A DNA stretch of 64,000 nucleotides, taken from contig NZ_BJDY01000002.1 in NCBI RefSeq assembly GCF_005405385.1, positions 620,001 through 684,000 of the forward strand, written 5' to 3'. The stretch is from Lactiplantibacillus mudanjiangensis. Its GTDB lineage: Bacteria; Bacillota; Bacilli; Lactobacillales; Lactobacillaceae. Position 1 is the stretch's first letter. Each line of letters starts with the position of its first letter. The notes beneath the pieces were generated by a model. That model did not search any database. It was not told where the DNA came from and saw only the letters and a program-made list of their open reading frames with translations. Made by a program: the position numbers and the translations under genes. Positions 44,167 to 57,839 of the stretch are shown piece after piece.

Positions 44167-44191
44167 ATGTTACTCTTATGAACCTTAATAA

Positions 44192-44278
44192 GGAGAGTAC
44201 AGGATTTGAACCTGCGCGCCGGTATTAGCCGGTTCGACGGATTTCGAGTCCGTTGCATTACCACTCTGCCAACTCTCC
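44192..44278 (-). tRNA. tRNA-Ser(CGA)
   Basis: An 87-nt cloverleaf on the minus strand: acceptor GGAGAGT/ACTCTCC, anticodon loop CTCGAAA giving anticodon CGA (codon UCG), a long variable arm (AACCGGC...GCCGG) typical of class II tRNA-Ser, and T-loop GGTTCAAATCC. The CCA end is not encoded. It is a single tRNA at the edge of an accessory patch. Confidence 0.96.
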
Positions 44279-56093: not shown

Positions 56094-56558
56094 ATGCTCA
56101 TGAAAAATTGCCTCATTTGCCAACGGATCACCGCCATTCAGCAGCACCAAAATCCTTGGTTCGTGCGCGAACTGACAAGTGGTTACGTTGTCTTGGCTGA
56201 TTCTCAATATTTTAAAGGTTATACGCTTTTCCTCGCCAAAGCTCACGTGACGGAACTTCACTTAATGACGCCAGCACAAAAAACACGCTTCTTAATTGAA
56301 ATGAGTTGGGTCGCCGAAGCTTGCGCACTAGCCTTTCACGCCGATAAAATGAACATTGAAATGCTCGGTAATGGTGACGCCCATGCTCATTGGCATCTTT
56401 TTCCACGCCATCTTGGGGATACGCCTAAACCCGGACCAGTTTGGTGGGTTGATCCAGCCATCATGTATGCCGACACAGCGACCCCCAATGCGACCGAATT
56501 AGCAACAGCTAAAGCCGCATTGAACCAAGCGTTAGATCACGTTTTAGCTAAATACTAA
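56094..56558 (+). CDS. HIT family protein
   Basis: A 154-aa histidine-triad nucleotide-binding protein. The N-terminus MKNCLICQRI has the CxxC start seen in many HIT proteins, and the triad region is HAHWHLFPR. The family hydrolyses or transfers nucleotidyl groups (Ap4A, AMP-lysine). ATG at 56094 or 56100. Its stop codon lies inside the 14-bp terminal repeat of the following RNA-like element, so the last residues may have been set by an insertion. Confidence 0.88.
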   Translation: MLMKNCLICQRITAIQQHQNPWFVRELTSGYVVLADSQYFKGYTLFLAKAHVTELHLMTPAQKTRFLIEMSWVAEACALAFHADKMNIEMLGNGDAHAHWHLFPRHLGDTPKPGPVWWVDPAIMYADTATPNATELATAKAALNQALDHVLAKY

Positions 56559-57076
56559 AGGTTGAAAGTTAAGTATGACGGTAATTACGCTAAATTGATC
56601 ACCTACGTCAGCCAGCGATTCTGCCGGCTGTGGGGACCGGTTCCAGCCAAAGTGCGGGCTGCCACCTCGCTTTCGAGCCTAGCAAAAACCGCTAGTCTCA
56701 AAAGTCGTCCACATCGTAAAGTCCGGAAAAGTCATTCGGACTAACGATGTTTTCACGGCCGGCGCCATCACTGGCTAACTCCGGTTACCTTGTGGTTGTT
56801 AATCAAGTTTGTGATCACCACTATAACTGAGAGTGCGCACACATTGAGCCCAGCCGTGGGAAGCTCTTAGCGATTTATCGCTTAGAGCTTGGCGCTTTTG
56901 AAACACGGGTTTGGTGGTTCAAAACGACGGTTCAGACCGCTCTTTGGCTGAACCGGTCCGCCCACAGCGTTCCGGCTCAATGTGGGCGAACGGTAGGTGG
57001 CAAGTACGATCAGTTTTGATCGATGAATGCTCATCATGTCAACGATTATTGCTAAAAAGTAGCTTTCAACCTTTAG
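56555..57076 (+). ncRNA. Candidate large structured RNA, about 520 nt, with terminal inverted repeat
   Basis: No protein-like frame fits here. The ends CTAAAGGTTGAAAG (56555-56568) and CTTTCAACCTTTAG (57063-57076) pair perfectly. Inside, at least ten further helices can be drawn: CACCTAC/GTAGGTG (56600/56993); CAGCC/GGCTG (56609/56626); a second CAGCC/GGCTG (56644/56657); CTAGC/GCTAG with outer GAG/CTC (56676-56698); ACATCGT..AGTCCG/CGGACT.ACGATGT (56711-56750); GTGGT/ACCAC (56792/56817); CACATTGAGCC/GGCTCAATGTG (56840/56974), extended by CGC/GCG; inside it GTGGG/CCCAC (56856/56961), a 13-of-14 bp hairpin (56861-56890), TTTTGAA/TTCAAAA (56896/56918) and GGTTCAG/CTGAACC (56929/56948); and CGATCA/TGATCG (57007/57017). 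G-U pairs that only work on the plus strand (56569-57062, 56599-57000) favour that orientation. A short relative lies at 60167-60239. Not RNase P, tmRNA, 6S or SRP RNA by visible motifs. Confidence 0.6.
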
Positions 57077-57102
57077 CTAAATATCAATAATTTGAAAATA
57101 AA

Positions 57103-57134
57103 AAAAACCAATTCGTCAATGCGAATTGGTTTTT
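57103..57134. terminator. Bidirectional terminator after the structured RNA / 49-aa ORF
   Basis: 13-bp perfect stem AAAAACCAATTCG/CGAATTGGTTTTT, 6-nt loop, A-run and T-run on either side. It can end both the plus-strand RNA and the minus-strand EIIA-like unit. Confidence 0.92.
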
Positions 57135-57146
57135 ATTAGTTGCGAG

Positions 57147-57296
57147 TTAACAAGCATGTTGCGTTTTCTTAACGGTTACCGTCGTTTGATATTGCGGCGT
57201 GACCGCTTTAGTCACATGAGATTGTGCTCGTGCAGCATGTGCGACTAGTCGCCCACGGACATAGCGAATGACTGCCAAAGTGATTAATAATGTCAT
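57147..57296 (-). CDS. Small protein, 49 aa, coupled to the EIIA-like gene
   Basis: Starts MTLLITLAVIRYVRGRLVAH and ends KKTQHAC; a short hydrophobic N-terminus is followed by a basic, Thr-rich part. Its ATG overlaps the TGA of the EIIA-like gene (ATGA), a coupling that makes translation likely. No family recognised. A terminator follows about 13 nt after the stop. Confidence 0.5.
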   Translation of the reverse strand: MTLLITLAVIRYVRGRLVAHAARAQSHVTKAVTPQYQTTVTVKKTQHAC

Positions 57297-57715
57297 GACT
57301 GCATCACCATCCCTGTCATCACTTCACGTTGTGGCGCTTGCGCCGTCAAAGTGGTTTGTGTAACCAATACCGCTTGTTGCGCCTGCCGAACAGCCGTGAT
57401 ATCAAAGGTTCCGAGTAACGTCATTGGTGAGACTGAATCGCCAACGCGAACTTGCCAATCAAACAAGGTTGTTGTGGCATGCGCTAAGGCCTGCGTCAAC
57501 CGCACCCAATACGTATGCCCCTCTAAATCCTGCAATTTAATCGCTCGTGTATTTAACGCGACAACTTCACCATGAATCGGTGAATGCACCTCAGCATTAG
57601 TTGGCTTGATTGCCAACCGAACTTGTTCATTGGTGGCAACGGATGCTAAATCGACTGGCATCCCCATAACCGGTGCTTTAAGTTTAAATTGATGATGCCG
57701 TCGAAATAGTCCCAT
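57293..57715 (-). CDS. PTS EIIA (glucose-type) domain protein lacking both active-site His
   Basis: A 140-aa protein with the EIIA-Glc fold pattern: KAPVMGMPVDLASV at the start, AEVHSPIHGEVVALN, and RVGDSVSPMTLLGTFDI at the end. In active EIIA-Glc two His 15 residues apart (KHAIGL and IHIGID) form the phosphorylation site. Here these places are Arg57 (NTRAIKL) and Arg72 (WVRLTQAL), also exactly 15 apart. It cannot be a normal phosphocarrier; it may be a regulatory or scaffolding paralogue. ATG at 57715 is 8 nt after GGAGG. No EIIB or EIIC is adjacent. Confidence 0.8.
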   Translation of the reverse strand: MGLFRRHHQFKLKAPVMGMPVDLASVATNEQVRLAIKPTNAEVHSPIHGEVVALNTRAIKLQDLEGHTYWVRLTQALAHATTTLFDWQVRVGDSVSPMTLLGTFDITAVRQAQQAVLVTQTTLTAQAPQREVMTGMVMQS

Positions 57716-57839
57716 GATCATAGCCTCCAGTATTTTTTAAACGTTACTTTGTTAACGCTTCCTTACTACATTTATACTGTACGGTATGAGACGCGTTTCA
57801 GGTCAAGGGTTTCTGTTAACTTTTTTCAAAAAAATTTTG

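Follow-up and report, generated by a model that had tools for sequence, protein, structure and literature searches.

MITEs of bacteria, among them Correia/NEMIS, RUP and ERIC, are short, non-coding, hairpin-forming elements which occur in high copy number between genes, have inverted ends and are flanked by a target duplication. REP, BIME and REPIN sequences are extragenic and palindromic, with units arranged in inverted pairs. Elements with hairpin ends are the kind moved by Y1 transposases. Large, multibranched RNAs form a further group, which includes GOLLD, ROOL and OLE, the first of these taking its name from lakes and the Lactobacillales. The unit of REP-type repeats spans 20-40 bp according to the accessible part of one report (PMC3733652). 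Each of two others mentions Lactobacillus a single time in its accessible part, where L. johnsonii appears in a table of genomes (PMC2267715; PMC1590033).

The window analyzed here is a 64,000-nucleotide stretch of the Lactiplantibacillus mudanjiangensis genome, in which a preliminary description had proposed a discrete large structured RNA behind a HIT gene. The proposed region does not have the look of a single RNA gene and is not a single-copy RNA gene; it is a non-autonomous, MITE-like mobile element. Overall, it is probably best explained as a MITE-like element whose two-unit fold is kept in place, likely at 3' ends. No description of it was found in a literature search which took in few subscription papers.

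The element behind the HIT gene

The element occupies positions 56555-57076 of the window (522 bp, no strand assigned) and belongs to a family of at least 135 copies. As noted previously, its ends form a perfect 14-bp inverted repeat, with the left copy CTAAAGGTTGAAAG at 56555-56568 (plus) and the right copy CTTTCAACCTTTAG at 57063-57076 (minus). A target duplication, GCTAAATA, which likewise has no strand, lies at 56547-56554 and again at 57076-57083; it measures 8 bp when it is taken to share the terminal G of the right repeat and 7 bp otherwise. The HIT-domain gene (56094-56558, plus; PF01230, E 9.5e-07) ends within the element, as its stop codon overlaps the left end. Read from the sequence, the HIT frame would be one residue longer before its stop if the element and one duplication were removed. 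On the other side lies a PTS EIIA-like gene in the opposite orientation (57293-57721, minus). Outside the element, a hairpin at 57103-57134, which by eye has runs of A and T on each flank, is terminator-like on the minus strand (1 found by the scan, with 0.9 expected in shuffles).

Internally, the element consists of two paralogous units of ~190 nt in inverted order, whose 3' sides in model orientation face outward, and each of which has three hairpins enclosed by a closing stem. The left unit lies at 56607-56779 on the minus strand (covariance model R1, 157.1 bits; 2014-2186 minus of locus L303) and the right unit at 56834-56988 on the plus strand (R1, 84.4 bits; 2241-2395 plus of L303), the window coordinates being converted from the model matches on that locus. 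The closing helix of the right unit spans 56840-56984 (plus), in which CACATTGAGCC (56840-56850) pairs with GGCTCAATGTG (56974-56984); this is the 11-bp long-range pairing of the preliminary description. The region is gene-free as described, for the longest reading frame within it, among the listed frames of at least 40 aa, has 60 aa and none is convincing.

The dense helices had been judged unlikely to arise by chance, and folding bears this out. The plus strand folds at -228.7 kcal/mol (z -10.8) and the minus strand at -227.3 (z -10.5), and none of 100 shuffles of either strand reached such a value. The earlier account mentions neither the equal folding of the two strands nor the repeat nature of the stretch. 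A scan of the whole window at Rfam gathering scores returned only tRNA-Ser (cga; 44191-44278, minus), which lies far from the element. A permissive scan of 56400-57200 gave seven matches, each far under its gathering score, and further scans at both settings left the element without a match, the permissive matches again falling far below gathering. Thus, of the structured RNA first proposed, the strong structure, the covariation (below) and the lack of an Rfam family stand. A discrete large plus-strand RNA is not supported, in view of the terminal repeats, the target duplications, the many copies, the two inverted paralogous units and a wobble-pair signature that is nearly absent (below).

Copies, mobility and relatives

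A first search of the own genome, with 40 of 228 candidates scored, gave at least 40 long matches, all spanning 406 bp or more at 82-100% identity, and at least five short ones. A conserved 45-mer with up to three mismatches was matched 109 times (54 forward, 55 reverse), and the left-end 14-mer with up to one mismatch 132 times; reversed patterns of both gave 0 matches. Profiling of the fetched loci yielded 121 elements, and the inclusion of 17 more regions raised this to at least 135, which cover 56,329 bases or ~1.7% of 3,289,607. This is a lower bound because the genome was fetched in parts only. The 17 additional regions, all with end matches, held further copies, deleted derivatives, and ends that stand alone or match by chance (L258, L261 and L271).

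Both ends were recognisable, within three mismatches of 14, in 51 of the 121 elements. An exact flanking repeat of at least 7 bp (7-10 bp, mode 8) surrounds 29 of these 51; three others have one of 4-6 bp and 19 have none, and when flanks were mispaired as a control none of the 51 gave a repeat of 6 or more. The stretch is almost certainly a mobile palindromic repeat. Two internally deleted derivatives that keep both ends were also seen (L265 3012-3204, 193 bp; L267 2790-3012, 223 bp). Of the 132 end matches 100 were listed, and those examined included neither a transposase-bearing copy with the same ends nor an autonomous partner element; the ones outside known copies were further copies, derivatives or stray ends. 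A putative DDE-type transposase acting in trans would have moved the element. An empty counterpart of the window site was sought in the genus, where adjoining matches were short, ~70% identical and none crossed the site.

In other species, 293 units were found in 149 loci. Where two adjacent units were separated by under 400 bp, they were divergent in 75 cases, in the two tandem orders in 11 and 3, and convergent in 0, with some overlapping loci counted twice in these figures. In the own copies together with 57 early loci, 100 of 102 neighbouring units were divergent. A divergent neighbour was lacking for 143 of the 293 units, 18 of these close to the edge of a locus, and the covariance model detected a diverged partner in 3 of 22 seemingly single-unit loci (two of these being the same place). 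In Levilactobacillus and relatives the units are themselves repeats, their homology mostly stopping at the base of the closing stem. Around single Levilactobacillus units no target duplication above control was seen (22 of 70, with 19-25 in the control). Three tandem units ~280 bp apart, ~93% identical over the repeat, were observed in Levilactobacillus wangkuiensis (L218 5387-6150).

A further 164 loci (914,758 bases, nearly all from other species) contained 10 stretches with both ends at up to two mismatches per end, one of which (L312) is an own copy. An exact duplication of at least 7 bp borders four of the nine from other species. Two of the four are G001 loci (L314 and L315), whose enclosed unit pairs differ strongly in sequence, and the other two are from Levilactobacillus yonginensis (L236, and L254, which encloses a single unit). 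Loci L016, L023, L152, L189 and L231 have both ends and no duplication. Comparison of filled and possibly empty sites gave an internal deletion (L193/L232), a site filled in both (L214/L239) and one pair which resembles an old insertion and has no clear duplication (L029/L118). In the first of these, a unit of L. fuyuanensis (L193 6610-6805) is cut in L. parabrevis to part of its stem base (L232 49-116), and the remnant looks like a hairpin deletion scar.

Relatives, some of them single units, were matched in 85 of 301 Lactobacillaceae genomes sampled, from 12 of 40 genera, by a survey model of only 36 pairs with at most nine candidates scored per genome. At the order level the model matched 12 of 246 genomes, and the four matches outside the family were marginal (E 1.1e-4 to 5.9e-4). 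A 32-base pattern searched in a genome collection of 84,980 species returned 78 stretches, every one from lactobacilli. These were mainly Levilactobacillus, together with Companilactobacillus, Secundilactobacillus similis, Lactiplantibacillus fabifermentans, Lactobacillus sp. HBUAS51381 and one MAG. Plasmids and phages searched in distant mode gave no match. Among viral contigs the pattern occurs in one stretch, a 4.9-kb IMG/VR contig (L328 248-279) which holds the unit motif and is perhaps bacterial sequence. Copy-holding loci were also seen to carry a T-box leader (L010 454-692) and a PreQ1 riboswitch (L017 849-893).

Covariation, strand and change in place

Covariation in homologues is heavy. 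Across 192 nonredundant units and 64 pairs predicted on both strands, all four Watson-Crick types, each counted if present in two or more rows, occur in 32 pairs, three types in 11, two in 16 and one in 5, and most helix pairs covary between species. Such dense covariation would suit a strand-specific noncoding RNA family carried on a mobile element, each unit on its own strand and the two pointing apart. So would irregularities that appear conserved by eye, for example a GGA/GGA internal loop and an AGACCGC..GGCT hairpin with its bulge and loop. In the same 192 units (9320 cells) G-U also exceeds A-C, by 279 to 215 (92 rows versus 55).

RNase P of the same family, processed alike and represented by 30 of 61 Lactobacillaceae genomes searched, served as the control. 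In pairs common to both strands it has 102 G-U versus 7 A-C (6.9% versus 0.5%), whereas three samples of 30 units have 48/32, 39/26 and 55/46, so that G-U makes up 2.9-3.7% and A-C 1.9-3.1% of the both-strand pairs of units. When all pairs of the sense fold are counted, RNase P has 406 G-U and 23 A-C, and the unit samples 81/33, 73/28 and 55/46; here the excess in units is stronger than in the common pairs (in two of the three samples), yet far from that of RNase P. Sense and opposite fold energies lie far apart for RNase P (-168.7/-118.7) and are nearly equal for units (-131.3/-127.0, -153.5/-143.7 and -134.2/-132.3). Mean identity is lower among the units (0.56-0.57) than among the RNase P sequences (0.72), and misalignment may therefore add A-C cells to these counts. 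Judged against RNase P, conservation of the fold thus differs little between the two strands, which is not the pattern of a dedicated RNA strand.

The preliminary description had suggested the plus strand from two G-U pairs. This is not supported, for the wobble signature is nearly absent and, in pairs common to both folds, the bias among own copies is not plus throughout. In common pairs, the wobble-type cells of own copies, whose numbers are inflated by shared ancestry, are 54 plus versus 152 minus in the left unit, 92 versus 34 in the right unit, 46 versus 8 in the middle and 7 versus 22 between units. Seen from each unit's own orientation, this bias runs the same way in both, as selection on an RNA would give, or strand-biased mutation. 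In the union of both folds the counts are 322 plus versus 242 minus (left) and 230 versus 178 (right). The left-unit counts thus reverse between pair sets, and the own-copy bias depends on the pairs chosen. Moreover, promoter-like sites number 0 in 56400-57250, where 1.0 was expected, and no clear common promoter is visible by eye upstream of the units. A strand-specific plus-strand RNA was rejected as the main reading because G-U exceeds A-C far less than in RNase P, a rejection limited by the part of the own-copy bias and the all-pairs counts that point the other way. The broader reading, with an RNA on each unit's own strand, is unlikely.

Neutral change in dead copies would likewise level G-U and A-C, and change in place was therefore tested at orthologous sites, taken as the 20 longest between-species matches. 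One poorly aligned pair (L187_1749/L188_6241) is retained in the counts. Changes affected 202 of 2846 paired positions (7.1%), 130 of 1026 unpaired ones (12.7%) and 420 of 2523 (16.6%) in the 5' flank, 130 nt of non-coding sequence which is either intergenic or spacer between units. The 3' flank, which is often coding, changed less than the units (132 of 2389). With structures taken from one sequence per pair, which favours kept pairs, 1171 pairs were kept, 103 had single-sided changes, 19 were compensated and 8 were changed doubly without pairing. The single-sided changes include 37 G-T and 27 A-C, which again speaks against an RNA strand. In 18 of the 20 cases the orthologue is closer than any sampled same-species paralogue, and gene conversion is therefore disfavoured as the cause.

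The units also endure in own copies in which the two ends are not both recognisable, where unit identity is 0.924 and 0.930 (0.934 and 0.946 in two-ended copies) and flank identity 0.594 and 0.626 (0.746 and 0.906), in a comparison of 39 and 34 copies of 73. The weaker flanks of the former copies are partly expected, because the copies were sorted by their ends. On balance, we favour the view that the fold is kept by selection in place.

Pairing could also be created and maintained with no selection, by template-switch mutation between the hairpin arms. This would yield strand-symmetric pairing, and the mechanism has been published for RNA genes, as far as the accessible part of the source goes (PMC8794818). 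It accounts poorly for unpaired bases that also change less than the 5' flank, with paired bases lower still, and for irregular loops that persist by eye. Furthermore, at most one compensated double change was found in 18 of the 20 orthologous pairs, the other two (both L187/L188) having 4 and 5. We regard template switching as improbable, and return to a fold kept by selection.

Gene 3' ends are the preferred sites of the copies. With genes called crudely, as ORFs of at least 90 aa, and five further own copies at locus ends left out, 52 of 116 own copies lie between convergent genes, 57 between tandem and 7 between divergent ones. In the background of 238 element-free gaps longer than 60 bp these numbers are 23, 142 and 73. 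The 3' end faces the copy in 161 of 232 neighbouring genes. Other species show it less strongly than the own genome does, with fewer convergent settings (22 convergent, 32 tandem and 8 divergent among 62 pairs).

The both-strand fold and the frequent convergent setting together suggest a cruciform or else a 3'-end structure that serves in both directions. The fold would be useful where it was inserted, mostly at gene 3' ends, because it would work on whichever strand is used. Read-through transcripts from either neighbour would form the same branched hairpin, which would then mark, block or protect the 3' end. Such a two-way structure at transcript 3' ends is the likeliest form in our view, and is put forward tentatively.

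Ranked just below it, and nearly as likely, is a DNA cruciform or single-stranded hairpin bound by a protein in transposition, chromosome structure or recombination, which we hold to be possible and rather doubtful. It is consistent with covariation that is mostly Watson-Crick and shows little strand preference, with the palindromic double-unit design and with the common internal gaps (23 of 121 elements). Against it, no candidate binding protein was identified, and Y1 transposases do not track the element in the genus. Y1 matches were found in 13 of 21 genus genomes, the one in the own genome being interrupted by a stop. They are absent from the carriers G001, G004, G007, G009, G011 and G020 and present in some other carriers, while G018 and G019, where the survey model had no match, have 3 and 7. 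Mobilisation by Y1 was rejected, as Y1 presence is unrelated to element presence among these genomes.

Comparison with known systems

Deep covariation alone would have pointed to an RNA gene, and it is the comparison of G-U with A-C, set against RNase P, that leads away from one. Should selection act on the fold at many insertion sites, a mobile repeat would have turned into a general component of 3' ends or of chromosome structure. The setting would be a large, food-associated bacterial family and an element to which no Rfam model was matched. More speculatively, these could be widespread mobile structural modules, independent of orientation and selected on both strands, which are used at the 3' ends of hundreds of lactobacilli genes.

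The element resembles GOLLD, ROOL and OLE in being large and multibranched. It differs from them in its many dispersed copies, in the near absence of a wobble signature and in having no Rfam match. With REP, BIME and REPIN it shares an extragenic position, palindromic sequence and inverted unit pairs. In contrast, its unit has ~190 nt, compared with the 20-40 bp given in the accessible part of the REP report (PMC3733652), and, unlike in REP/RAYT systems, six carrier genomes are without a Y1 transposase. The likeness to MITEs extends to non-coding sequence, high copy number, inverted ends, target duplication, intergenic position and hairpin formation, and as a kind the element is ordinary, a MITE-like palindromic repeat. 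It is set apart from MITEs by two paralogous inverted modules with ~64 pairs, most of which covary, and by the conservation of these modules in copies without ends. The element is therefore unusual in its size, its depth of covariation, its two-unit design and its conservation after insertion.
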